Assembly: GCF_010731115.1 (NCBI RefSeq)
Contig: NZ_AP022616.1
Coordinates: 4,030,001-4,094,000, forward strand
Reading direction: 5' to 3'
DNA length: 64,000 nt
Source of the DNA: Mycolicibacterium phocaicum
GTDB taxonomy: Bacteria > Actinomycetota > Actinomycetes > Mycobacteriales > Mycobacteriaceae
Positions 8,239 through 22,981 of this stretch are shown here, piece after piece (position 1 is the first letter of the stretch; every line of letters begins with the position of its first letter). The translations under genes were made by a program, and so were the position numbers. Below the pieces are notes generated by a model. That model worked only from the letters and a program-made list of their open reading frames with translations, made no database searches and was not told where the DNA came from.

Positions 8239-8661
8239 ATGGTTCTCGGTACGGCGACCGCCGTCACGCTTTTCGCCGCCGGCCTGATCTTCCTGCTGGC
8301 GCTGGTTCTCGGCATCTGGAAGTACCGGCAGATGGCCGTCAATCCGGACCATCTGGCGCATCCCTACGTGGACATCGCGCACCGGGCCGCGCTGATGTAC
8401 TCGTTCGCCACCCTGCTGGTCGCGGTGTTCGTGCAGCTCAGTGCCTGGCCGGCGTGGGTGAACCTCACGGCCGCAATGGTTTTGGTGTTCTTCTTCGTCG
8501 TCGCGATCGCCGCGTACATCCAGCATGGGTTTCGCCAGGACACCACCAACCAGTTCGAGCACCCCAGCGGCAGCCTGCACGCCGGGATGCTGGCGCTGAT
8601 CCTCGGCGAGGTCGGTGGATTTCTCGTGCTGCTGGCGGGTTTCGTGGTTGCGCAACTGTGA
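8239..8661 (+). CDS. Small integral membrane protein, four predicted helices
   Basis: The 140-residue product is almost entirely hydrophobic helices (about residues 5-27, 50-70, 77-97 and 118-138) with short polar loops, and no recognised catalytic motif. The ATG at 8239 is ten bases past the PHP stop, so it is probably co-transcribed with it. The longer frame upstream (from 8104) overlaps the PHP gene and is not favoured. Function unknown. Confidence 0.75.
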   Translation: MVLGTATAVTLFAAGLIFLLALVLGIWKYRQMAVNPDHLAHPYVDIAHRAALMYSFATLLVAVFVQLSAWPAWVNLTAAMVLVFFFVVAIAAYIQHGFRQDTTNQFEHPSGSLHAGMLALILGEVGGFLVLLAGFVVAQL

Positions 8662-8678
8662 GCCGAGGGAGTTTCAGC

Positions 8679-8999
8679 ATGGATGGTCGATCTACGACGC
8701 GTTGGTTCGCCGCACTGGCCGCCGCGGGCCTGCTGACGTCGTGCTCCTTCCACATCGGCACCGGGGCCGCCACCATGCCGAAAGACAAGTTGGAGACGGC
8801 GGTAAAGAGCAAGCTGAGCACCAAGACCACGTCGACCATCGATTCGGTGGTCTGCGACGGTGGCCTCGAGGCGAAGGTGGGAGCAGCTCAGACGTGCACC
8901 GTTGTCACCGGCAAGACGAGCCGTCGTGCGACGGTGAGGGCCGTGGACATCCGCGGGTCCGACATCGCCCTCAGCATCGAACTCATTCCCGGTAAGTGA
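8679..8999 (+). CDS. DUF4333 lipoprotein
   Basis: A 106-residue secreted protein with an N-terminal hydrophobic segment and lipobox LTSC (acylated Cys22), then a DUF4333 domain with its two conserved cysteines (VVCDG and AQTCTV). Such proteins are common lipid-anchored envelope proteins in mycobacteria; function is not known. GAGGGAG at 8665-8671 lies eight bases before the ATG. The stop overlaps the next gene's GTG start by four bases (GTGA), which suggests coupled translation. Confidence 0.85.
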   Translation: MDGRSTTRWFAALAAAGLLTSCSFHIGTGAATMPKDKLETAVKSKLSTKTTSTIDSVVCDGGLEAKVGAAQTCTVVTGKTSRRATVRAVDIRGSDIALSIELIPGK

Positions 9000-9301
9000 C
9001 GCTTCACGACGGCCTGCTGCAGCTGAACAGCCCGGCGCGCCCGTGGCTGATCCGGGACGGCGCTGCCGACGGTGTCGACCTGGTGGCGGAGTGGAAGTCC
9101 GATGACCCGGACTGGCGGCAAGTGCTCGAAGACCTTGCGGTGGTGCTGACTTTCCAGATTCACCTGAGGCTCGATGGCGAGCGGCGGGAGGTGCACGCGG
9201 TGGACCACGTGGTCGAATGGCGGCACGATGCCGAAGGGTCGATCACCATGGCGTCGATGCCCCAAGGCGGATCCGTGCGTCAGGATTCGCCGCGCAAATA
9301 G
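8996..9301 (+). CDS. Conserved-type hypothetical protein, 101 residues
   Basis: Starts at a GTG that overlaps the DUF4333 stop (GTGA). The soluble product has a Trp-rich acidic stretch (RPWLIRDGAADGVDLVAEW, then EVHAVDHVVEWRHD). I recall a similar pattern (DLVAEW, EVRAVD) in other mycobacterial hypothetical proteins but cannot name the family. No signal peptide or membrane segment. The 3' end overlaps the convergent EspH-like gene by 22 bases. This gene marks the left edge of the accessory island. Confidence 0.65.
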   Translation: MTLHDGLLQLNSPARPWLIRDGAADGVDLVAEWKSDDPDWRQVLEDLAVVLTFQIHLRLDGERREVHAVDHVVEWRHDAEGSITMASMPQGGSVRQDSPRK

Positions 9302-9747
9302 CGTGAACGGGCCTGCGCTTCGGCCGCCGCGGCCTGATCTGGCGTCGGTAGGTTCATGTGCTGGTCGACGTAGTCACGGGCGGCCTGTGCATCGACACCC
9401 TGATGCGAAAGCATGCCCTCGATCAAAGTTCGTTGCTGTGCCCGGCCTTTCATACAGACTAGCTTGGCGGTAGCGATAATCTCTTGCGCGAGTTGCCATT
9501 CGGGAATGCGTGGCATCTCCCGCGAGAGTTCGACGCGCCGCAGCCATCCACTGATTGTTGCAGTTGCGCTGACCGTACTTGCAGCGTTGGTCACGGTGAC
9601 GGTGAGTGTCAGTGGTGCGGTTGGTTCGTCATGGACGGCTCGAAAATGGTCGTCGTTATCAGTTGCCGGGAACCAGGGTTCGAAGTCGCCAGAGGTGCCT
9701 GCATCATCGAACTCATCCTCAGGATCGTCCCACGAATCATCGGGCAA
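9280..9747 (-). CDS. EspH-like ESX accessory protein
   Basis: The 155-residue product has an acidic, disordered N-terminus (DDSWDDPEDEFDDAG) and a C-terminal domain that I recognise as the EspH family of the ESX-1 locus. Shared segments recalled from EspH are TVTN...STVSATATISG, RRVELS, QLAQEIIATAKLVCMKGRAQQ and, most tellingly, LPTPDQAAAAEA. EspH lies next to eccA1 in M. tuberculosis and is needed for secretion of certain ESX-1 substrates. The start is TTG at 9747, supported by GAGAGGAG (rc of 9752-9759) and the absence of any earlier ATG. It is divergent from precursor 1, sharing a 145-base intergenic region. The match is from memory of the family and should be checked. Confidence 0.72.
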   Translation of the reverse strand: MPDDSWDDPEDEFDDAGTSGDFEPWFPATDNDDHFRAVHDEPTAPLTLTVTVTNAASTVSATATISGWLRRVELSREMPRIPEWQLAQEIIATAKLVCMKGRAQQRTLIEGMLSHQGVDAQAARDYVDQHMNLPTPDQAAAAEAQARSRYLRGES

Positions 9748-9806
9748 TGCGGCTCCTCTCGCTCGTTCAGACTAGCAGCGTCAAATGGGCGGCAGGGCGT
9801 TGAAAA

Positions 9807-9850
9807 TTGGTGCGGATCGATCAGATCAACGTGGGTTAGGGTGGGTTCAG
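9807..9850 (+). promoter_or_regulatory. Promoter-like element shared by both precursor genes, copy 1
   Basis: TTGGTGC (9807-9813) is followed, 27 bases start to start, by GGTTAGGGTGGGTTCAG (9834-9850). The same arrangement with the same 27-base pitch precedes precursor 2 (14702 and 14729). The block contains a TAnnnT -10-like hexamer (TAGGGT, 9837-9842). Whether it is a promoter or an operator cannot be told from sequence alone. Confidence 0.5.
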
Positions 9851-9892
9851 GGGAGAATGTCGACGCAGGTGAGGACTGTACAGGGGGTGGCG

Positions 9893-10378
9893 ATGGCCGA
9901 GTTGCGAGTTGATTCGGAGGACCTCAACAGGTCAGGTGCTGAGATCGCAAGTATTGCTGCGGAGGTCAGGGCATCGCTTGCGAACAGCGATACCGAGATT
10001 GCATCTGCGCGGTCTGGCTGGGCGGGTACTTCGGCAGAAGCGTTGGCCTCCCTGGCTGCCGAATTTCAAGCGGCGACCAACACGCATTCGCAGGACCTTG
10101 AAGAGCATGGCACGAAATTCACCGGCGCAGCAAAGAGGTACGCGGAGACCGATGAGTCGGGGGCGACGTCGGTGCACAAGGCAGCTGAGGCCATCTCTAG
10201 CGGTAACGATGGTTTTGATCTGGACGTCCAATTCACTCGGGCTAACCTCGCGCCACCAGCGGGGGCGGGCATCGGTGGCCCTACGAATGATGGCATTTGC
10301 CCCATGCCTGTTGTCACAACACCCGCGTGCACGGCCACCTGTACCACCCCCGCCTGCATACCGACGGCCAATTGCTGA
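9893..10378 (+). CDS. WXG100-leader class I lanthipeptide precursor 1
   Basis: A 161-residue protein read as a lanthipeptide precursor. Residues 1-100 form a WXG100-type helical hairpin: WAG at 43-45 is the W-x-G turn, and YAETD at 83-87 fits the YxxxD/E export signal of ESX substrates. FDLDV at 108-112 matches the FNLD/FDLD box that LanB enzymes bind in nisin, subtilin and epidermin leaders. The tail after the PPAG at 121-124 has five Cys (136, 146, 150, 155, 161), eight Thr and no Ser. Four TxxC motifs (143-146, 147-150, 152-155, 158-161) are spaced like the nisin B ring. The start is the ATG at 9893 with AGGGGG five bases upstream; in-frame starts at 9785 and 9857 are weaker. The lanB start is 46 bases downstream. 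Confidence 0.82.
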   Translation: MAELRVDSEDLNRSGAEIASIAAEVRASLANSDTEIASARSGWAGTSAEALASLAAEFQAATNTHSQDLEEHGTKFTGAAKRYAETDESGATSVHKAAEAISSGNDGFDLDVQFTRANLAPPAGAGIGGPTNDGICPMPVVTTPACTATCTTPACIPTANC

Positions 10379-10424
10379 CGTGTGATGACAGGGTCAGAGC
10401 GCCCGCCGTCGATTCGATGACTGA

Positions 10425-13388
10425 ATGATCGACGAAGCTCCGCCTAGAGCATCCTCCTTGGTTCAATGGCCGCTTGGCGACGTGGTGACAATTCGGTGCT
10501 CCATGGGAACAGTCAGCGCGTATCCCGATCACGTTTGTGAGTGGGGAGATATCGAAGCCATCGCGTGGCTGTGGTCGCGCGCAACTATCCGGGAAGCGGT
10601 ACAGCTTGCCAGTCCGTCGCTGGTGGCTCAGATAGAGAAACTATTGGCCACACCGGACGCTGACGCTCCGCTGAAGAGACGGAAGCGTCTGCATAGAGGC
10701 TTGTTGAAGTACGCCCTCCGAATGAGTACTAGGTGCACGCCCTTCGGTGTATTCGCCGGTGTGGCCGTGCTGCCGGTCGGCGACGACGAACTGAAATTCG
10801 GCGATGCTCACGTCCGGCACGTTCGGGCAACCGGTGCGGTTACCAGGCGTCTGGTGGAGCAGACGCGGATGTTGCCGCAGGCTCGGCTGTATCCCAATCC
10901 TTCGTTGAGTGAACGAGCCGGTCGGCTGGTGGTCAGCGTCATGCGCGGCTCTGATGACACCCATACACGGGCTTCGATCAGGGCCACTGGTCCCGCGCGG
11001 TTGGCTGTCGCGACCGCTTCGGGTACAGCGACACGGGAGGACATCGAGCTGCGAGTGTCTGCCGTGTACTCTGCCGCCGATTCGGAGAAAGTGCGTCAGC
11101 TGGTCACTGATCTACTGGACGCCGAGGTGCTGCTCTGTGAGGCTGAGCACTCGGCATTCGACGGTGATCCGCTGGCACGGGTGCCGGACGAGGTCGAGGG
11201 CGTCGCGGAGATCCGTGAGGCCGTCGCTCAGTATGCCGATTCGTCTGATCCGGTTGGGGACGGCAGTCTGAGTGCGCTCCTGCGATTGTGCGCCGCCGGT
11301 GATGTCCAGCGGGACATCCATGTGGACCTGGAGCTCGACGTATCCGGACGCGTGCCGATGTCGGTCATCGATGCGGCGCAGGCCGCCGTTCGGGTTCTGA
11401 CCGCGACGATGGCGCACCTACCGGCGAACCCAGCGCTCGGAGAGTTCAGTGCGACATTCACCGAGCGATACGGGCAGACGCTGGTGCCGTTCCTGACCGC
11501 CATCGATGAGGAACTCGGAATCGGATTCCCCCGTGCATACGAGCCCGAACTGCCACTGGGTCATGTGCCGACCAAGCCCGATGGCGCCGCAGTCGAGCGG
11601 CGTAGGGATTTCATTTCGTCCGTGCTGCTGGCGAGCATGACCGGTGGATTGGATGTCGTCGAGCTCACTGATTCTGACCTGGCGGGCTTCCCAGAACCGG
11701 ACAATCTCCCCAGCAGTTTCGACATCATGCTGCGGCTTCATCGAGACCAGGAGGACCTGCAGGCGACTGTTATCGGGGTTGCAATGCCGGGTGGGTCTGC
11801 CCTCGGGCGCTTCACTGCTGTCATGCCGCAGGCGCGAGATTGTGCCCAGCGGTGGGTGGACTTCGATGGAGACTGGTGGGCGAACAAAACGGGCGGACGA
11901 GGAATTCTCTGCGGTATCGACTACATCGCCGGCGCCGACATGATCAACGAGGTCTCCGCCACTGCACAGCTGTATCCGGTCACATTGGCGCTCAACGCGC
12001 GTCCGCCGAGCCCCGCCGGCCGGTTGCTCACACTGGCTGATATCTACCTCGGCATCGCGGAGGGACAAATGTGCATCGTGCTCGCCGACGGTACGCCGGT
12101 CAGCGTGCGTCAGTTGAACATGGCCACTATCCGTGCCTCGTCGAAAGCAATCCGGTTATTGCGAGAGATATCTGATGCGCAGACCCAGCATCCGTTTTGG
12201 TCCTGGGGTGAGGCCGAGGCGGCCATGAACAAACTCCCCGAGGTCCGGTATCGGGGTGTCACCCTCGTCGAGCAGAAATGGCGCTATCCGTCGACCGAAG
12301 GCCGCTCTGTAGTCGAGTTGAGGGAATGGCTTATCGCTGCTGGAATCAGCCGCTACATCCGGGTGGGGCCGCACGACAACCTGCTTCACCTCGATACCCA
12401 GAACCCGGTGCATGTGGACCTATTGCTGAGTGAGATCACTGCCGGCAACAGGTGGTTGATCCGTGCTCCGAGTCCGGACCAGATGGGCGTCGTTCGCGAT
12501 CAGGCGATGGCGATGCACCCCGCCGAGGTGGTTGTTACCGTTGCCGCGCCGCATTCGAAACATGTTGAACCAAGCCTGGACAGCCACCCGCTGCATAATC
12601 CCGCAGACGACAATTGCCGACTGTTGGTCCCAGGGGGAGCATGGACCGCGTTCGCCATATCGGCTGGGGGTGGTTCCCACGACCGGAGCCTGCGGGATTT
12701 CGCTGATTGCTTTCCCGACCTCGCTGGTGAGTGGTATTTCGTACGGTATCGGCAAGACGGCCGAGACCAGTTGCGGTTGCGCGTGCACCGCCCCGTTGCC
12801 GAAGTCTCCGACGTGTTGGCCTGGCTGGCCGAGGCTCGACTGTCGGGGCGCATCGGTGACTATTCGATACCGACATACCACCGCGAGCTCGAACGTTACG
12901 GCGGGCCGCGCAGCTTTCCCTGCTATGAGCGATTGTTCTGCTGTGAGACAGCGTATCTCGTCAACAGGCTGCCGATCGTTGGCGCAGACTCGGGGATGTC
13001 ACGCTTCAGACCGGGCATTGAGGCGGCGGCCGGGGTTCTGGCCCAATGGTTCGACGCTCTTGATCCGGGCCACGTCAATGTCGACGAGGTGATCGACTTC
13101 GCTGTCGAGGGATACTGCAGTGAGCTGGGTGCGCGCGTGCATGCAGTCAAAGCTGCTCTGCGCCAACAGCACTTGAGTTTGGATGTGGATAGCGACTTCG
13201 TCGCTGTGCTGCGGAAGTTTTGGAGCGACCCTGCCCAGCATTCGGCCGTTGTCACCCCCGCGGTGCTGCAAAGCGCGAGTCACCTCCTGTGTAACCGGTT
13301 GGGGATGAGTCGCCAGGAGGAGTTCGCCGCCCTGTGGATGGTGAGAACCGAACGAAACCGCTGTCGGCGGCGACATGACGAACCCTGA
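10425..13388 (+). CDS. lanB: Class I lanthipeptide dehydratase, full length
   Basis: At 987 residues this is the size of NisB. LanB enzymes glutamylate Ser/Thr of the precursor using glutamyl-tRNA, then eliminate glutamate to give dehydroalanine/dehydrobutyrine. The N-terminal domain carries the family signature RMSTRCTPFGVFAG (residues 99-112). The C-terminal elimination domain (SpaB_C) runs from about residue 745, with WYFVRYRQDGRDQLRLRVH from 770 and YHRELERYGGP further on. Both halves are in one frame, so the enzyme should be complete. An in-frame stop directly precedes the ATG at 10425, so no longer start exists; no strong ribosome-binding site is seen. GC is lower than in flanking genes and rare TTA codons occur (for example in the stretch at 12155). 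Confidence 0.93.
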   Translation: MIDEAPPRASSLVQWPLGDVVTIRCSMGTVSAYPDHVCEWGDIEAIAWLWSRATIREAVQLASPSLVAQIEKLLATPDADAPLKRRKRLHRGLLKYALRMSTRCTPFGVFAGVAVLPVGDDELKFGDAHVRHVRATGAVTRRLVEQTRMLPQARLYPNPSLSERAGRLVVSVMRGSDDTHTRASIRATGPARLAVATASGTATREDIELRVSAVYSAADSEKVRQLVTDLLDAEVLLCEAEHSAFDGDPLARVPDEVEGVAEIREAVAQYADSSDPVGDGSLSALLRLCAAGDVQRDIHVDLELDVSGRVPMSVIDAAQAAVRVLTATMAHLPANPALGEFSATFTERYGQTLVPFLTAIDEELGIGFPRAYEPELPLGHVPTKPDGAAVERRRDFISSVLLASMTGGLDVVELTDSDLAGFPEPDNLPSSFDIMLRLHRDQEDLQATVIGVAMPGGSALGRFTAVMPQARDCAQRWVDFDGDWWANKTGGRGILCGIDYIAGADMINEVSATAQLYPVTLALNARPPSPAGRLLTLADIYLGIAEGQMCIVLADGTPVSVRQLNMATIRASSKAIRLLREISDAQTQHPFWSWGEAEAAMNKLPEVRYRGVTLVEQKWRYPSTEGRSVVELREWLIAAGISRYIRVGPHDNLLHLDTQNPVHVDLLLSEITAGNRWLIRAPSPDQMGVVRDQAMAMHPAEVVVTVAAPHSKHVEPSLDSHPLHNPADDNCRLLVPGGAWTAFAISAGGGSHDRSLRDFADCFPDLAGEWYFVRYRQDGRDQLRLRVHRPVAEVSDVLAWLAEARLSGRIGDYSIPTYHRELERYGGPRSFPCYERLFCCETAYLVNRLPIVGADSGMSRFRPGIEAAAGVLAQWFDALDPGHVNVDEVIDFAVEGYCSELGARVHAVKAALRQQHLSLDVDSDFVAVLRKFWSDPAQHSAVVTPAVLQSASHLLCNRLGMSRQEEFAALWMVRTERNRCRRRHDEP

Positions 13389-14670
13389 TCACCGGGCGTT
13401 GCCTGCGCTTTCGGCTGCAGCTGAGGCTGGCATCGCCTTGGGCTGGGACATCATGGACCGCTGCCGCGCCCATACTGACATTGCTGAAGCAACTAACCTG
13501 CGGCTCGCCTCCGGTCATGCCATTGAATGGGACGCGGCCGCCATCGGGCACGGCGACCTCGGGGTCGCGATGGCATTTTCCGTGGCTGACCAGCTAGATC
13601 CTGACGGCGGATGGGACCAAATCGCTCGTACCCACCTCGCAAAAGCCGCCCACCGCCTGCAACAGAACCCATCGCCAGGTCTCGGTCTCTTCGCTGGCGC
13701 CGGTGGGCTCGCATTCGCTTTGCGTGCACATTCTCGTAAGGGGCAGCGCTATCAAGCAGCGACGACCAACACGGACCTCCTGCTGGTGAAGGCACTCGAT
13801 GACGCGGTCGAGAATATCGATATCGAAAGTGGTTCGGCCACCTCATTTTATGACGTGGTGTCGGGTATCGCGGGCGCCGTTACCTATGCCTTCACTACTG
13901 AGGCGGGGACAGGGGCGCTCGGGCCGAGCGCGTTGCGAGCCATCAACGTGCTTGCTGAACTTGCATTGGCCGACGGACCGGGCGGGTTGTGGACGCCCGG
14001 GGACAAGCTGAACGAGTACGAGCGTGAATGGTCCGCGCAGTCGCGGAGCGGTCAGCTCAACTGCGGCTTCGCCCACGGTATTGCCGGCGTGCTGAACGTG
14101 CTGAGTCAGGCGTGTGATCGTGGTTGGGGATCGTCCGCGGTTGCGGACGCGACTGAGCATCTGGCCGAAATATTGCTGAACGCATCGGACCGCGACGGAG
14201 AACTGCGCGTTCCGCGTGTTCTTCCCTCGAGTGCAACTGCGCCGACGGTGCCACAACGCTATGCATGGTGCTATGGCAACCTCGGTGCCGCCCTTCCGTT
14301 CTACAACAGCACAACCCTGCGTAGGAAATATCCCGGTGTGGTTCCGCGATTGCTGGACACAACTACCTGTGGTGGTAAGGATCTCCACGACGGAGATTCG
14401 TCGTTATGTCATGGACAAGCCGGCCAGCTGGTGCTCGAACGAATTGTGCTGGGCGAGAACACGCTTGACCGAAATGTTGCTGCGATGCTCCGACTGAAGA
14501 ACCCGCGACGCGCATTCCTGCTCGACTGTGGCCCGACAAGCGCGCATCTGGACTCGCCGGGTTTTCTGATTGGCTCGGGTGGCGCGGCCGCGGCCTTGCT
14601 TTCGCTGCTGATGCCTGCCGACAGCATGGACTTCACCCGGATGCTGACCGGCTCCTGGATTCATTGGTGA
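13375..14670 (+). CDS. lanC: Lanthionine synthetase C (cyclase)
   Basis: A 431-residue zinc protein that adds Cys thiols to dehydrated residues to close (methyl)lanthionine rings. The zinc ligands are in place: Cys299 in WCYGNLG, and Cys345-His346 in SLCHGQAG. The GFAHGIAG motif lies at about 231-238. Length and motif order agree with NisC-type cyclases. The ATG lies inside the end of lanB (14-base overlap), so the two enzymes are translationally coupled. Rare TTA Leu codon at 14404. With lanB it forms the minimal modification set; no transporter or protease gene follows. Confidence 0.94.
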   Translation: MTNPDHRALPALSAAAEAGIALGWDIMDRCRAHTDIAEATNLRLASGHAIEWDAAAIGHGDLGVAMAFSVADQLDPDGGWDQIARTHLAKAAHRLQQNPSPGLGLFAGAGGLAFALRAHSRKGQRYQAATTNTDLLLVKALDDAVENIDIESGSATSFYDVVSGIAGAVTYAFTTEAGTGALGPSALRAINVLAELALADGPGGLWTPGDKLNEYEREWSAQSRSGQLNCGFAHGIAGVLNVLSQACDRGWGSSAVADATEHLAEILLNASDRDGELRVPRVLPSSATAPTVPQRYAWCYGNLGAALPFYNSTTLRRKYPGVVPRLLDTTTCGGKDLHDGDSSLCHGQAGQLVLERIVLGENTLDRNVAAMLRLKNPRRAFLLDCGPTSAHLDSPGFLIGSGGAAAALLSLLMPADSMDFTRMLTGSWIHW

Positions 14671-14701
14671 TCGAGTGCGTCAGGTGGTAGATGGCCTGAA
14701 T

Positions 14702-14745
14702 TTGGTGCCTGGCGAGTGGACATGGTGCGGTTATGCTGAGTTGAT
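14702..14745 (+). promoter_or_regulatory. Promoter-like element shared by both precursor genes, copy 2
   Basis: TTGGTGC (14702-14708) and, 27 bases on, GGTTATGCTGAGTTGAT (14729-14745). Twelve of the 17 bases of the second block match copy 1 (consensus GGTTAnGnTGnGTTnA), including a -10-like TATGCT at 14732-14737. Its presence suggests precursor 2 has its own start site rather than relying only on read-through from lanC. Confidence 0.5.
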
Positions 14746-14805
14746 CGCAGGTCTGACGGTTTGGCGGCGATCGGCGTGGCATGCAATATCTGGGGGTGGT
14801 ATTCG

Positions 14806-15471
14806 ATGAGTTTATCGATAGCGGATATCGACAGGTGGAGTCCTGAGGCGATCACAGCGGTCGGCGCTGCGGCTACGGCCAGAGCGAAGGTGGCGTCACA
14901 GGCAGGTTCGCGATTGAAGAACCTGCCAGTATTTGACAGTTGGCAGGGCGAGGGCGCCAAAGCGGCACAAGCGCGGACGTATGCGCTCGCGGCTGGATTG
15001 GAACGGCACGGTCAGGCCGCGTCAGCTGTGGCGGTAGCCACCGCTATCGCTGCGAACGAGGTCAGGCAGGTGAAAACCCAGCTAGTTGAGCTGAGGTCGG
15101 TTCTTGGGCAGTACGGCATCACAGTTGATGCGAATGGTAGCCGTGCGGTTCCACCAACAAACTTGTCATCGCTGCCTGCTGCGACTCGCCGGATGGTGCA
15201 AGACACGACCACAACGGGCCAGCAGAGTCTGGATCGGCTTCGACAGGCGGCGGATACGGCAGACTCGCACCTCGCCGCCGCCCTGAAGACCAAGAGCGCC
15301 GATTTTGATCTGGATACCCAGTATTCACGCGCCCAGGGTCTTCGAGAACCGGTACCTGCCGGCTTTACGACCACTGATTGCATAAACGCTACCTTGACTG
15401 TTATTCAGATCACGATTGCGACCTACACAATACACGGTGGCGGAGGTTCCAATGGGAAGCATTGCAAGTAA
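14806..15471 (+). CDS. WXG100-like-leader class I lanthipeptide precursor 2
   Basis: A 221-residue protein, probably a second precursor for the same LanB/LanC. The N-terminal ~150 residues match a helical ESX-substrate-like domain common at the N-terminus of mycobacterial proteins (start MSLSIADIDRWSPEAI; W-x-G turn WQG at 46-48). It differs from the domain of precursor 1 and lacks YxxxD/E. FDLDTQYSRA at 167-176 lines up with FDLDVQFTRA of precursor 1, and both are followed by a P-x-A-G motif (here PVPAG, 182-186). The tail from 187 begins FTTTDC, is rich in Thr and beta-branched residues, contains four Gly (211-214), and ends with Cys220; only two Cys (192, 220) are available for rings. ATG 14806 has GGGGGTGG six bases upstream, like precursor 1. 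Confidence 0.75.
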   Translation: MSLSIADIDRWSPEAITAVGAAATARAKVASQAGSRLKNLPVFDSWQGEGAKAAQARTYALAAGLERHGQAASAVAVATAIAANEVRQVKTQLVELRSVLGQYGITVDANGSRAVPPTNLSSLPAATRRMVQDTTTTGQQSLDRLRQAADTADSHLAAALKTKSADFDLDTQYSRAQGLREPVPAGFTTTDCINATLTVIQITIATYTIHGGGGSNGKHCK

Positions 15472-15522
15472 GACGCGAGTCGCAGATATGCCCATCGCGA
15501 CAATGATCGATGGCATGTGATC

Positions 15523-15771
15523 ATGCTCGAATATTGGTGGATGTTGCCGGTCCTGCTATCGACACTTCTGGTTGCGCTTCTAATTCGACGATTGAATACC
15601 GAAACGAGTCAAAAGCTTCTATTGGCGACAATATGTGCGACCATCCTGGTCCTGCCGGCCGCGCATTTGCCTTTTGCATATGCCGTAGCGGCAATAACGG
15701 TGGTCAATCTGTTGATACTGTTCCGGAGATCCGGCAAGTTTGGCGCCTCGTCAAGGCAAATGAACCCGTGA
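15523..15771 (+). CDS. Small membrane protein, candidate immunity factor
   Basis: An 82-residue hydrophobic protein with one N-terminal helix (YWWMLPVLLSTLLVALLI), a short basic loop, and a long hydrophobic stretch that could form one or two more helices. It begins 51 bases after precursor 2; a GTG at 15517 is an alternative start and no clear ribosome-binding site is seen. Low-GC, like the rest of the island (one 60-base line here counts 32 G+C). Small membrane proteins beside lanthipeptide genes are often immunity factors; that role is inferred from position only. Confidence 0.55.
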   Translation: MLEYWWMLPVLLSTLLVALLIRRLNTETSQKLLLATICATILVLPAAHLPFAYAVAAITVVNLLILFRRSGKFGASSRQMNP

Positions 15772-15873
15772 ATCGGGCGGATATGCGGACACCGACCTGA
15801 CCGCGACGAAAAAGGGCTCTGCATTCTGGTTTGGTTCATGCCGTGATCATGCACTTGGGCCATGACATCGACG

Positions 15874-17125: not shown

Positions 17126-17761
17126 TCAGGCGCCGTAGATGCTGGTCAGCCAGATGTGGGTGAGGGTGTCCACGACGTCGTCGTGGGCGACGGCCCCGGG
17201 CTCGCCGGCCAGCGTCGCCATGATCATGCGCTCGTTCATCAGGTTCAGCGAAGTTGCCAGGTCCCGGGCGGGCAGCGTCTGAGGCGCGGCGCCGCGCGAG
17301 CGTTCCGCGGTGATCAGGGCGGCGGTCAGGTTGATCCACTTCTGCATGAGGCCGGCCCAGACCTCGTGGAACTCGGGAACTGTTCTGACGGCCTCGACGC
17401 CGGCTCGGGCGGTGGCCGGGTGGGAGCCGAACGAGCTGAAGAAGATCTCGATGCCGTGCCGGATGGCCTCTTTGGGGTCGGCCGGCATGTCTTCGAGTGC
17501 GCCGTCGAAGCCGGTGTCGGCGCGCTTGATCAGCGGATCGAGCAGCGACAGCAGGACTGCTTCCTTCGATGCGAAGTAGAAGTAGAACGTCGGTCGCGAG
17601 ATGCCGGCCCCTTTGGCCAGGTCATCGACGGAAATCGCGGAGAAGGAGCGCTGCTGCAGCAGGGTGGTCGCGGTGGCCAGGATCGCCGCTTCGCGGTCGT
17701 CGCCGGAGGGTCGAGTCGCGCGTCGGCCCCGGGGTGTCCGGGTCTGTGCGGCGGTACTCAC
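17126..17761 (-). CDS. ethR: TetR-family repressor EthR
   Basis: A 211-residue TetR repressor that controls the divergent ethA. The N-terminal helix-turn-helix is at about residues 40-65 (SVDDLAKGAGISRPTFYFYF); the C-terminal domain is the all-helical ligand pocket that in M. tuberculosis binds ethionamide boosters. GTG start at 17761. The 78-base gap to ethA holds two inverted repeats that are the likely operator. Confidence 0.92.
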   Translation of the reverse strand: MSTAAQTRTPRGRRATRPSGDDREAAILATATTLLQQRSFSAISVDDLAKGAGISRPTFYFYFASKEAVLLSLLDPLIKRADTGFDGALEDMPADPKEAIRHGIEIFFSSFGSHPATARAGVEAVRTVPEFHEVWAGLMQKWINLTAALITAERSRGAAPQTLPARDLATSLNLMNERMIMATLAGEPGAVAHDDVVDTLTHIWLTSIYGA

Positions 17762-17839: not shown

Positions 17840-19309
17840 ATGATCGAACACTTCGATGTTGTCATCGTCGGTGCCGGCATCTCCGGCATCAGCACCGCCT
17901 GGCACCTCCAGGACCGCTGCCCCACCAAGAGCTACGTGATCCTCGAGCGCCGGGAGAACATCGGTGGCACCTGGGACCTGTTCAAGTACCCGGGCATCCG
18001 CTCGGACTCCGACATGTTCACCCTCGGCTTCCGGTTCAAGCCGTGGGCGTCGGCGAAGTCGATCGCCGACGGCCAGCACATCTGGGACTACATCAACGAG
18101 GCGGCCGACGAGAACGGCATCCGCCAGCACATCCGGACCGGCCAGCGCGTCACCTCGGTGGACTGGTCCGACGCCGACAACCGCTGGACCATCGACATCG
18201 AGGTCGCCGGTGAAGCGAAGCAGATCACCGCATCGTTCCTGTCGGTGTGTAGCGGCTACTACAACTACGACGAGGGCTACTCGCCCGAGTTCCCGGGTGC
18301 GGCCGACTTCAAGGGCCAGATCATCCACCCGCAGCACTGGCCCGAGGACCTGGATTACACCGGCAAGAACGTCGTCGTGATCGGTTCCGGCGCAACGGCC
18401 GTCACACTGATCCCGTCGCTGGTGAACGGCGGCGCCGGCCACGTGACCATGCTGCAGCGCTCGCCCACCTACATCGGCGCGCTGCCGCTGGAGGACCCGA
18501 TTGCCAAACAGACCAACAAGTACCTGCCGAAGCACCTGGCGCACTTCACGAACCGCTGGAAGCAGATCGGCTACAGCACCGTGCAGTATCAACTCGCCCG
18601 CAAGTTCCCGGCGGTGTTCAAGAAGGCGCTGCGCCAGATGGCCGAGCGTCGACTGCCGGAAGGCTTCGACTACGACAAGCACTTCAGCCCGCGCTACAAC
18701 CCGTGGGACGAGCGAGTTTGCTTGGCGCCCAATGGCGATCTGTTCAAGGCCATCCGTTCGGGCAAGGCGGGCGTCGTCACCGACACCATCGAGACCTTCA
18801 CCGAGGACGGCATCAAGCTGAGCTCCGGCGAGGTCCTGCAGGCCGACATCATCGTCACCGCAACGGGTTTGAACATGCAGCTGTTCGGTGGCGCCGTCGC
18901 CCACCGCAACGGTGAGCCCATCGACCTGCCCTCGAGCATGACCTACAAGGGCCTCATGCTCTCGGGTGTGCCGAACATGGCGATCACCTTCGGGTACACC
19001 AACGCGTCCTGGACGCTCAAGGCCGACCTGGTTTCCGAGTTCATCTGCCGCGTGCTGAACTACATGGACGCCAACGGTTTTGACCGCGTCGAGCCGCAGC
19101 ACCCGGGTGGCAGCGTGGACGAGCTGCCGTTCATGGACTTCACCCCCGGCTACTTCAAGCGGGCCATGGACAGCCTGCCCAAGTCGGGTTCGGAAGCGCC
19201 GTGGAAGCTCAAGCAGAACTACTTCTTCGACATGCGGACCATCCGGTACGGCAAGGTCGACGAGCAGGCTCTGCAGTTCACGAAACACCGGGTTGCCGTG
19301 AACGCCTAG
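17840..19309 (+). CDS. ethA: Baeyer-Villiger monooxygenase EthA
   Basis: A 489-residue FAD/NADPH monooxygenase, the same length as M. tuberculosis EthA, which activates ethionamide and oxidises ketones to esters. FAD site: VIVGAGISGIS at residues 8-18. Baeyer-Villiger fingerprint FKGQIIHPQHW (FxGxxxHxxxW). NADPH site: VVIGSGATAV. Divergent from ethR and presumably repressed by it. A perfect 18-base-pair terminator stem follows. The large frame on the opposite strand is a shadow. Confidence 0.95.
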   Translation: MIEHFDVVIVGAGISGISTAWHLQDRCPTKSYVILERRENIGGTWDLFKYPGIRSDSDMFTLGFRFKPWASAKSIADGQHIWDYINEAADENGIRQHIRTGQRVTSVDWSDADNRWTIDIEVAGEAKQITASFLSVCSGYYNYDEGYSPEFPGAADFKGQIIHPQHWPEDLDYTGKNVVVIGSGATAVTLIPSLVNGGAGHVTMLQRSPTYIGALPLEDPIAKQTNKYLPKHLAHFTNRWKQIGYSTVQYQLARKFPAVFKKALRQMAERRLPEGFDYDKHFSPRYNPWDERVCLAPNGDLFKAIRSGKAGVVTDTIETFTEDGIKLSSGEVLQADIIVTATGLNMQLFGGAVAHRNGEPIDLPSSMTYKGLMLSGVPNMAITFGYTNASWTLKADLVSEFICRVLNYMDANGFDRVEPQHPGGSVDELPFMDFTPGYFKRAMDSLPKSGSEAPWKLKQNYFFDMRTIRYGKVDEQALQFTKHRVAVNA

Positions 19310-20101: not shown

Positions 20102-20536
20102 TCAGTCCGTGGCGCGGCGTCGGGCCAGCAGTACGACGAGCAGGGCCAGGACGCCCGCAGCGATCACCGCGGCCACCGGCACCGGCGAGCGTTGCGGAAC
20201 GGGCGGAGCCAGGTTGAGCACGGGCAGCGGTGCGGGCGCCGGGGCCTCAGGAGTCGAGGGTGGGGGAGCGGGGGTCTCGGGAGCCGGGGCCGCTGGTGGG
20301 GCGACCTTCGGCGGCGCCTTCTTCGCGGGCGCCTTCTTGGCCGGGGCGGTGGTGGCGGCCTTCTTGGCGGGCGTCTTCTTCGCGGGCGCCTTTTTCACTG
20401 CGGCCTTCTTGGCCGGAGCCTTTTTCGCCGGAGCCTTTTTGGCGGGCGCCTTTTTGGCAGGTGCCTTCTCGGCCGGCGTCTCTTTCGCGGGTACGCCGGG
20501 TAGCGACTCGTCCGGGGAATTCTGCTCGTCTGCCAT
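20102..20536 (-). CDS. hns: H-NS-like nucleoid/membrane protein with PAKKA repeats (Rv3852 type)
   Basis: A 144-residue protein: a short acidic start, then about ten lysine-rich PAKKA-type pentapeptides (residues ~16-75) like histone H1 tails, a Pro/Ala linker, and a C-terminal membrane helix (VAAVIAAGVLALLVVLLA) ending in Arg residues. This is the layout of M. tuberculosis Rv3852, named Hns, in which the repeats bind DNA and the helix anchors it to the membrane. The repeats make the DNA look repetitive; they are coding. Next to the Rv3850-like gene as expected. Confidence 0.9.
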   Translation of the reverse strand: MADEQNSPDESLPGVPAKETPAEKAPAKKAPAKKAPAKKAPAKKAAVKKAPAKKTPAKKAATTAPAKKAPAKKAPPKVAPPAAPAPETPAPPPSTPEAPAPAPLPVLNLAPPVPQRSPVPVAAVIAAGVLALLVVLLARRRATD

Positions 20537-21213: not shown

Positions 21214-21454
21214 TCCGGCTGACCTCCCGGTCGTCTCGACACGTGTGCACGATCTTGCTGCGATGGTGACGTCACCCTATCGTCCGTGAGCCGGAATCGG
21301 GCACCGGGTCTTGGGTCGAATTGCGCCGCAATTCGGGGGTGGAATTTCCCACATTTCTCGCTACTTTATCCAGCAAACAAAGTCCGGCGGCTGTGCGACA
21401 ATTATTCGGAATTCATCGGAGCGGGTTTTTGATGCCATGAAAGCAGAGGGACCG

Positions 21455-22981
21455 ATGGCGCCACGCCAACGAATAGCTACAGCTGCCGCTCTGATGGCAT
21501 CTGGGCTGTTGATCGCTGGCATGGGCGGCGCGAACGCCTTCGCTGATACGGCAGCTTCCGGGAGCGGATCGAGCGGCCACGGCGGCGGGGCTTCCCACGA
21601 GGGTACGAAGTCCGGCGGCAACTCAACCGCTGGTGGCGGGCCCAAGGCCCCGACGCGGCCGGCCAAGCCGACGGATGGCCAGTCGCAGACGCCGTCGACC
21701 GGTGGTACCGGTTCGGGCGGGAAAAAGGATAAGCGCGGCGGCTCCGGCGGCGTTGCTCACAGTGGCTCTGAAGCCGGTGTTCACGACCCCGGCAAAACCG
21801 GCGATTCCGGCAAGAATGCGTCGGAAAGTAATGCCCCCAGCAAACAAAACAATGCCACTTCTCCGGCGCGATCAGAGGATTCTGGAACCCCGAAGCCGGC
21901 CGCTGGCGAACATCAGCCGTCGGCCGGCTCGTCGACTCAGCAGAGCGAAGCCGGTACGGCGACCGGTACTACCGCCCCCGCGACGACGGGCGGCACGAGC
22001 CAGCCGGAACCGGCTGCCGCTACCGGTCCGACGCCCGCGGCCGCAGCCGCGGCCAGCCTCCCCGGGATCCGGCTTCCCAGCCTGACCAGCCTTCCCAACC
22101 TGTTGGGTCTGCCCGCCCTCTCCGGCCTGCCCAAGCTGCCCGGCCTGCCGACGGTTCCCACACCGGGGGGCGTCAAGCCGGGAAGCGGTTCGGACAGCCC
22201 TGCCGCGCCGGCCACCTCGCCCACCAAGACGCCGGTCAAGGCGACCCCGGCCGGGGCGACCACCAGCATCAACTTGATGGGGCTGACGTTCTCCCTGCCG
22301 ACCGCGGCCGTCCACACGACGTCGACCGGCGCCGTGCAGAGCATCGATCTGACGAAGATCCCCCTGGCGTCGCTGGTACCGCGACTGCCTCGGTGGGACC
22401 AGCTCCCGCAGCTGCCCGACATGTCGAACATCCCGGTGCTGGCGCAGCTCGCCGCGATTCCGGTGTTCGTCCTCGCCCACATCGAGCCGGTCTATGACTT
22501 CGTCGCAGGACTCACCAACGCGACGCTCGACGCCGCGACATCACTGCCGTTCATGCAGACGTCGCTTTCGATGCTGAGCGAGCAGGTCGTTCCGACCATG
22601 AACCTGAACGTCGGGCGTCCGAACCGCATGCCCACGGTCATGGCGAGCCTGCCGACAGCGCCGGTGCTGGAACCTCCGGCGTTCCCCGCGCTGAAACTGG
22701 ACAACCCGGTCGTGGTCAGCGCGCCGGCGGAAGTGCCTGCGGTGCGGTCACCGCAGCCGACCACATTCGGCACCAAGAACGAGATCATCGCCGAACCCGC
22801 TTTCCGCGCCGGATATCCTGACTACCTGCGTGCGGCCGGTCTCAGTGAGGTGGCGGCGGTGGCCGTCCCCGGCTTCACCGGCATCCTCATCCTGACCGGC
22901 GCTGGTGGGTTGGTCGGGTACCGGCAGGCGCGCGCTGGTCACGTGGTCCGCCGCAGCGGCACTGCACGATTTATGACCTGA
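21455..22981 (+). CDS. Secreted low-complexity envelope protein with C-terminal membrane anchor
   Basis: About 508 residues. A Sec signal peptide (ATAAALMASGLLIAGMGG then ANAFA) is followed by a Gly/Ser/Thr/Pro/Lys-rich disordered stretch of roughly 200 residues. A short LPxL repeat block (SLPGIRLPSLTSLPNLLGLP and onward) and a more ordered Pro/Val-rich part come next. A C-terminal hydrophobic helix (VPGFTGILILTGAGGLVGY) with Arg-rich end acts as stop-transfer. AGAGGG lies six bases before the ATG at 21455; the frame opens at 21311 but upstream residues do not look like protein. No enzyme domain. Probably wall-spanning and membrane-anchored. Confidence 0.72.
   Translation: MAPRQRIATAAALMASGLLIAGMGGANAFADTAASGSGSSGHGGGASHEGTKSGGNSTAGGGPKAPTRPAKPTDGQSQTPSTGGTGSGGKKDKRGGSGGVAHSGSEAGVHDPGKTGDSGKNASESNAPSKQNNATSPARSEDSGTPKPAAGEHQPSAGSSTQQSEAGTATGTTAPATTGGTSQPEPAAATGPTPAAAAAASLPGIRLPSLTSLPNLLGLPALSGLPKLPGLPTVPTPGGVKPGSGSDSPAAPATSPTKTPVKATPAGATTSINLMGLTFSLPTAAVHTTSTGAVQSIDLTKIPLASLVPRLPRWDQLPQLPDMSNIPVLAQLAAIPVFVLAHIEPVYDFVAGLTNATLDAATSLPFMQTSLSMLSEQVVPTMNLNVGRPNRMPTVMASLPTAPVLEPPAFPALKLDNPVVVSAPAEVPAVRSPQPTTFGTKNEIIAEPAFRAGYPDYLRAAGLSEVAAVAVPGFTGILILTGAGGLVGYRQARAGHVVRRSGTARFMT

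Follow-up and report, generated by a model that had tools for sequence, protein, structure and literature searches.

Exchangeable heads, several of them related to ESX substrates, on predicted LanB-modified peptides in Mycolicibacterium phocaicum and its relatives

Class I lanthipeptides such as nisin are produced with a full-length two-domain LanB and a LanC (NisB/NisC), and their precursors carry an FNLD-like box and a Thr/Cys core behind a leader that is usually, if not by strict definition, short; a LanT and a LanP are usual companions but not obligatory ones. In Nif11 RiPPs, nitrile-hydratase-leader RiPPs and proteusins a protein fold serves as the leader, and the lanthipeptide cases among these protein-derived leaders have class II LanM partners and ABC export. 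To our knowledge, none of the protein-derived RiPP leaders is itself a substrate for secretion. On the secretion side, EspC and EspA form a substrate pair, and the polymorphic toxins of the WXG/LXG kind join a T7SS-directing N-terminal domain to an exchangeable C-terminal payload. The role of the FNLD box in the class I leader is treated in PMC7296275, while PMC9765416 and PMC9811218 describe ESX substrates as an N-terminal export module with a variable C-terminal part, moving in folded, heterodimeric form and marked by a conserved YxxxD motif for secretion.

The locus described here, in M. phocaicum (RefSeq assembly GCF_010731115.1), shares with the class I lanthipeptides the two-domain LanB, the LanC, the FNLD-like box and the Thr/Cys core, and differs from them in what precedes the box: 107 residues in its first precursor and 166 in its second, predicted to be helical and folded in both, against a few elsewhere. 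This bears out the contrast with the usually short class I leaders that had been drawn in an earlier reading of the same DNA, made from its letters and open reading frames (hereafter the sequence-only reading). The short leader itself is absent, no LanT or LanP was found among the scanned neighbours, lanC was not found in most of the close relatives, and heads are exchanged between family members. Like the ESX substrate pairs (EsxB/EsxA, PE/PPE, EspC/EspA, EspF/EspE), the system has a WxG turn, a YxxxD on the small partner and, in some relatives, a small gene followed by a large one; unlike those pairs, it ends in a LanB-tagged core and has lanB (here lanC too) in its operon. The leader folds of Nif11, nitrile-hydratase and proteusin RiPPs differ from the heads found here, and, in contrast to the WXG/LXG toxins, the payload is a peptide for post-translational modification, and it is the payload that is kept and the head that is exchanged. 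The sequence-only reading had known of no described lanthipeptide with an ESX-substrate leader. Agreeing with this, neither a precedent nor any fusion of a lanthipeptide or other RiPP with ESX or WXG100 appeared in the titles and abstract openings listed from the literature searched, a collection that most subscription journals and bioRxiv lie outside. In the accessible parts of four papers, lantibiotic and ESAT-6 secretion are separate features of S. epidermidis genomes (PMC4770681), lantibiotic-type and type VII terms are likewise separate genome features (PMC8401907, PMC11004387), and type VII secretion is mentioned merely in passing (PMC8406302).

The window, by which we mean the whole stretch of 64,000 nucleotides analysed, covers positions 4,030,001-4,094,000 of a 5,853,197-base single-contig genome (NZ_AP022616.1). 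The features of its cluster, in window positions, are:

8662..15873, no strand: stretch absent in the relative G012, where the flanking genes abut; G+C 0.57-0.64 against 0.62-0.70 around it
9893..10378, + strand: precursor 1 (P0001), 161 aa by translation; WXG100 head, FDLD box and Cys-rich core
9893..10195, + strand: WXG100 head, residues 1-101 (PF06013 over residues 4-88; alignment); three relatives stop here
10019..10027, + strand: W-A-G, residues 43-45; W43 and G45 invariant in 5/5 homologues
10139..10153, + strand: YAETD (residues 83-87), a YxxxD motif for ESX export; no variation at Y83 and D87 in 5/5
10214..10239, + strand: FDLDVQFTR, predicted LanB-recognition box (FNLD-like), from a pattern search of the genome
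10226..10375, + strand: tail and predicted core of P0001; 5 Cys and four TxxC (TPAC, TATC, TPAC, TANC)
10425..13388, + strand: lanB, 987 aa, for a class I lanthipeptide dehydratase that has both the glutamylation and the elimination domain; PF04738 307.5 bits, PF14028 85.1 bits
13375..14670, + strand: lanC, cyclase, 431 aa; PF05147 115.6 bits; aligns with NisC
14806..15471, + strand: precursor 2 (P0003), 221 aa; helical head 1-166, FDLDTQYSR and a second core; ends GGGGSNGKHCK
15304..15329, + strand: FDLDTQYSR box of precursor 2, one of two pattern matches in the genome
15523..15771, + strand: hydrophobic small protein (about three membrane stretches), kept next to the precursor in relatives

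In the relative G012 (locus L101) the match of the window gene at 8239-8661 ends 5 bases before the dinB match, where the window has a gap of 7.2 kb. Further along the window, an EthR-type TetR regulator (17126-17761, - strand; EthR_C 163 bits) lies divergent from a flavin monooxygenase (17840-19309, + strand) as an ethR/ethA-like pair, followed by a Lys/Ala/Pro-rich repeat protein (20102-20536, - strand; KKAPAKKAPA...) with a C-terminal hydrophobic stretch and by a predicted surface protein that is long, rich in Gly/Ser/Thr/Pro and unmatched in Pfam (21311-22981, + strand).

The sequence-only reading had proposed a single 161-residue protein with a WXG100 domain, a YxxxD motif, an FDLD box and a Cys/Thr tail in this order, and both the translation and the Pfam WXG100 model (PF06013, E 2e-12, 47.7 bits, cut-off 27.3) confirm it, the FDLD occupying residues 108-111 rather than 108-112 and the tail holding eight Thr along with its five Cys and four TxxC. 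The search with WXG100 models that it had suggested thus succeeded with Pfam, while NCBIfam TIGR03930 fell slightly below its cut-off (42.1 vs 44.85 bits); the EspC model was also below cut-off (18.9 vs 23.5 bits). M. tuberculosis EsxB (3fav) is the best match of a profile built from the five-member WXG100 family (E 2e-8). The suggested structure prediction returned a WXG100 hairpin (helices 8-40 and 46-102, with YAETD inside the second) and a disordered tail in an AF2 model of low confidence (mean pLDDT 56). Foldseek placed EsxB chains on top for this model with a probability of 1.00, yet the best E was 0.015, and by VIA-align ESCRT-III and chemoreceptor chains reached a similar Z. We place the start at 9893 and not at 9785, because three free homologues align from the same ATG (M[SG]EL[RK]V); the database copies P0002 and P0016 have an annotated start further upstream. 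A degenerate FDLDxQ[FY]xR pattern, allowing Ser in the last place, gave two matches in the 5.85-Mb genome, both in this cluster, and the reversed pattern gave none. Pfam showed no match to Nif11 or nitrile-hydratase leaders in P0001 (up to E 0.1) or in P0003, P0006, P0009, P0012, P0014, P0016 and P0023 (up to E 10).

Precursor 2 lies downstream of lanC; its head has WQG at residues 46-48 and leads into FDLDTQYSRAQ and a core ending HGGGGSNGKHCK. Neither this second precursor at 14806-15471 nor the wider family was part of the sequence-only reading. The head (residues 1-166) is PPE-like by prediction; nothing in Pfam matches it significantly (WXG100 7.7 bits, E 5.8), BAR domains and designed bundles match its predicted helical bundle with equal Z in VIA-align, and its profile found nothing relevant among PDB sequences. 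Foldseek gave no match with an E of 0.001 or better for either precursor model, so for neither model is a T7SS fold proven by fold comparison alone. The small membrane protein encoded next (15523-15771) is probably an immunity protein candidate.

LanB exceeds the cut-offs of both Lant_dehydr_N (PF04738) and Lant_dehydr_C (PF14028) and aligns with NisB, MibB and another solved LanB-type protein. Its TPFG, RLR and ERYGG stretches align with NisB and MibB, HLLCNRL being aligned only in a weak second stretch with MibB, and TPFG, RxR, ERYGG and HLLC[NV]RL are common to this LanB and three relatives, with V in place of N in G277; we take these four stretches to have a catalytic role. LanC, whose gene start overlaps the lanB end by 14 bases, has NCGFAHG, WCYG and CHG motifs, which presumably provide zinc ligands and the active site.

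A lanB search of the genus returned 22 of 396 genomes at E 1e-20. Eight belong to a close clade (55-100% identity; G008, G269 and G002 have only pieces), and in the other 14 (L011-L021, L023-L025) lanB is 28-33% identical to that of the window. A scan for FxLD up to 1.5 kb on each side of these 14 lanB loci listed nothing, and the long flanks of three of them (L052-L054) contained neither F[DNE]LD nor a good WXG100 match. The family-level search found lanB in 10 of 401 genomes, and a second draw of 365 genomes added no clade member at E 1e-45. By a whole-genome LANC search lanC is present in 4 of 10 genomes, namely this one, G063, G477 and G438; in G063 it is on a different contig from lanB. 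The same search did not find it in G277, G149, G145, G008 (only 70% complete), G269 and G002. In four relatives (G063, G277, G149, G145) lanB has its full length or is broken by nothing but contig ends, and lanC adjoins it in none of them. The locus in the window is the sole close-clade locus seen with lanC beside lanB and also the sole one seen with a five-Cys core, and because the two coincide there, lanC and the Cys-rich core appear to belong together. As six of seven close relatives have no detected lanC, the predicted label 'lanthipeptide' would suit the window locus better than the whole family.

These distributions bear on the alternative that survives best, that the LanB family makes dehydrated, ring-free peptides or introduces some other LanB-type modification, so that lanthionine is not the product. 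The six genomes in which lanC was not found and the one or two Cys of the second-type tails speak for it, and for the relatives it may well be right; the overlapping window lanC with its usual motifs and the five Cys of the window core speak against it, and on balance we hold it to be unlikely, though the most serious of the competing accounts. What stands of the lanthipeptide precursor with an ESX-substrate leader proposed in the sequence-only reading is the fusion of head, box and core beside lanB and lanC; its chemical class is a prediction, and one for this locus.

The window precursors belong to a wider set of proteins. Among 5.8 billion proteins, the tail of precursor 2 retrieved 6 and the related tail of G277 retrieved 16, while the whole of P0001 as a query retrieved only its near-copy P0002. 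All 24 proteins considered (P0001-P0024) have an F[DN]LD box, and inspection of their heads sorted them into five types:

Type A, WXG100: P0001, P0002, P0016
Type B, the head of precursor 2: 15 proteins
Type C, EspA/EspE: P0006, P0023 (88-89 bits, EspA_EspE cut-off 27)
Type D: P0009, P0010 (P0009 without a significant Pfam match; its source record is named Mycobacterium lentiflavum)
Type E: P0012, P0014 (no significant Pfam match, no WxG, no YxxxD)

Pairwise comparison of nine representatives, with z calculated against shuffles, showed conserved tails on dissimilar heads: P0003 and P0006 (B/C) are 84% identical in the tail and 17% in the head (z 0.2), P0011 and P0012 (B/E) 90% and 22% (z 1.0), and P0016 and P0011 (A/B) 87% and 23% (z 1.3). 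Between types, z was below 3 in 23 of 32 head pairs and at least 3 in 9, the highest values being 7.9 (B/D) and 7.0 (C/E); such pairs may reflect distant common descent or composition, and the number of truly unrelated heads may therefore be lower than five. The P0001 tail is 28-35% identical to those of the other representatives (z 2.6-6.4), largely via the box. P0016 is a second fusion of a WXG100 head, box and core, in which a head 48% identical to that of P0001 and above the EspC cut-off (30.4 vs 23.5) is joined to the other of the two cores. W-x-G occurs in 22 of the 24 heads, and YxxxD in 3/3 of type A, 1/15 of B, 1/2 of C, 2/2 of D and 0/2 of E, a spread that, at the level of sequence, broadly fits the published rule of heterodimers with a conserved YxxxD (PMC9765416, PMC9811218).

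In the genus, the 57-residue core matched 6 of 396 genomes at E 0.001, including G000, G063, G145, G149 and G277; the sixth, G186 (L065), was dropped, being a weak 25-residue match (E 9e-4) with no precursor found. FxLDxQ[FY]xR gave 11 matches in 10 of 396 genomes, 7 of them in six clade genomes (G000 twice, G002, G063, G145, G149, G277) and none in the clade relics G008 and G269; those in G161, G217, G287 and G331 are probably due to chance, since the frames lack a precursor-like context. We conclude that this is, as judged from sequence, a small mycobacterial family of putatively LanB-tagged peptides on exchangeable heads, several of which fall into ESX-substrate families.

Among the 18 proteins scanned with Pfam between 4928 and 22981 (a scan that left out the frame at 20102-20536 and the upstream glutamate synthase genes), no ABC exporter, S8 protease, LanT or LanP was found. 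The genome has three EccB loci (EccB genes at 5,102,944, 3,384,862 and 3,699,039), where eight proteins scanned with Pfam include WXG100, PE, PPE, FtsK-type and S8 members and which, by gene order and sequence features, we take to resemble ESX-3, ESX-1 and ESX-4; the precursor cluster is not adjacent to any of them. All three S8 protease matches of the genome are at or near these loci: those at 5,107,065 and 3,374,747 are within ~10 kb of the EccB genes at 5,102,944 and 3,384,862, and the one at 3,670,498 is ~28 kb from that at 3,699,039. NisP and ElxP, peptidases of class I leaders, belong to the S8 proteases (PMC10885120), and the mycosin MycP1 cleaves EspB (PMC9811218). In one relative, the type E precursor P0014 is named ICEMyc226_00221 and its locus (L029) is on a 389,088-base contig. 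The contig of this cluster (G149:C15, Mycolicibacterium sp. CBMA 226) is about the same size as ICEMyc226. The paper on that element (388,440 bases) reports two T7SSs on it, and the portion of its main text seen has no lanti-, lanthi- or bacteriocin words. As P0014 bears the name of an element with two ESX systems, ESX and precursor may travel together.

Outside the clade, the nearest lanB genes (33-35% identity) are those of G477 and G438, from two other genera of the family, and adjoin lanC. Loci L046 and L047 are of the ordinary class I kind, each with one short precursor whose FDLD follows two residues after the presumed start Met (MSDFDLD) and whose core (ITSKSLCTPGC... or ITSISLCTPGC..., that is ITSxSLCTPGC) we take to be nisin-like. 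As read from sequence, both have ABC-2-type permeases and L046 also an ABC ATPase. The long flanks of L048-L050 have no short FDLD precursor, and across the long flanks of L046-L051 nothing matched WXG100 better than E 0.25 (positive control L034, 192 bits). Near the lanB of L051 (28% identity) are four short frames with FDLD, each having a tail that contains Cys. Within the same enzyme lineage, then, there are short leaders with a transporter, and large heads for which no transporter was found.

These loci also weigh on the idea of the heads as folded scaffolds by which the peptide is held or kept silent, in the manner of long leaders in other RiPPs, with an export that bypasses ESX. Long structured leaders are indeed known (proteusins, PMC10858898) and two of the head types match no T7SS family; against this, the families that were matched (WXG100, EspC, EspA/EspE) all consist of ESX substrates, the WXG100 set shows no variation in YxxxD and WxG, and the scanned neighbours include no ABC exporter, whereas L046 and L047 pair short leaders with ABC-2-type permeases. 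We consider this account rather improbable, and take ESX to be the likely exit route, because tails with the same box occur on several heads, some of which fall into further families of ESX substrates.

The pairing of heads is best seen in relatives with a free WXG100 gene. L034 (G145) has the order WXG100 gene (101 residues), type B precursor, small membrane protein and lanB; L038 (G002) has the first three in the same order plus lanB pieces, and L036 (G008) a WXG100 gene and lanB pieces with no precursor found. The three free proteins are 51-57% identical to the P0001 head and stop at residue 101, where in the alignment P0001 and P0016 continue into FDLD; W and G of WxG and Y and D of YxxxD are invariant in all five homologues, and the L034 partner exceeds the EspC cut-off (33.5 vs 23.5). 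The small frame that overlaps the precursor start by 4 bases in L032 (G277, type D) is a different one, containing YANED; ahead of the precursors of L028 (type C) and L029 (type E), no gene for a small partner was observed. The window has both presumed members of the pair, with lanBC between them. Because three relatives have a separate, core-less gene for 101 residues, we favour the view that P0001 is the small member of a substrate pair and would have gained a core of its own. The WXG100 head noted in the sequence-only reading stands for P0001; in the wider family it is one of about five exchanged head types, and in those relatives it exists as a free, core-less gene. In G002 the relic precursor (L038, 9277-10050) keeps the head and FDLDTQYARPQG, directly followed by SKGKHCK, without most of the core seen in P0020, and lanB is broken into pieces; this joint loss fits a functional link between core and enzyme.

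One may also suppose that the WXG100 protein P0001 is a mere carrier partner of precursor 2, its own tail a recent extension unprocessed by LanB/LanC, since the partner is tail-less in three relatives and only the near-copy P0002 was found as a relative of the P0001 tail. Against this, that tail carries FDLDxQFxR, the box of the family, and four TxxC, a related head is fused to a conserved core in P0016, and lanC is present just where, within the close clade, a five-Cys core was seen; these points make the supposition doubtful to much the same degree as the scaffold account. That P0001 is a chance or mis-called frame is ruled out by the Pfam score, the same-ATG homologues and the motif count, and accidental read-through from an unrelated WXG100 neighbour by the second fusion, P0016.

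We suggest, then, that the cluster encodes two FDLD-tagged precursors with tails predicted to be modified by LanB/LanC, and that their heads probably carry the peptides out via ESX. The fusions, motifs, enzymes, head exchange over a conserved tail and lack of a transporter or leader protease among the scanned neighbours are read directly from the sequence. The EsxB/EspC-like WXG100 head with its YxxxD and the larger partner without one are likely to pair as ESX substrates, because their genes are paired in relatives. The FDLDxQ[FY]xR box directly after each folded head would recruit LanB, which, as the enzymes suggest, would use glutamyl-tRNA to dehydrate Thr/Ser of the flexible tail, and LanC would close thioether rings, mainly in the five-Cys core. 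An ESX system would then export the pair, with ESX-1 as the leading candidate, given that the EspC and EspA/EspE models match related heads. Speculatively, a subtilisin-type mycosin could free the core outside, since the only three S8 proteases of the genome are in or near ESX loci, or the core could remain attached; the small membrane protein would probably confer immunity.

On this reading, paired ESX substrates, folded and exchangeable, may provide LanB-modified peptides with both their leaders and their export heads. We are inclined, somewhat more cautiously, to see here ribosomal natural products exported by type VII secretion, in which the head would be LanB leader and ESX ticket in one, with a mycosin in place of LanP and ESX in place of LanT. 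The outgroup with short leaders and ABC transporters makes such a switch of leader testable. If true, this would explain why genome mining for short leaders may miss such precursors, and RiPPs would gain an export route without a dedicated transporter. For ESX systems, a chemically modified peptide would in turn be cargo of a new kind, and RiPP biosynthesis and type VII secretion, two fields not connected in any of the papers listed from the literature searched, would be joined.
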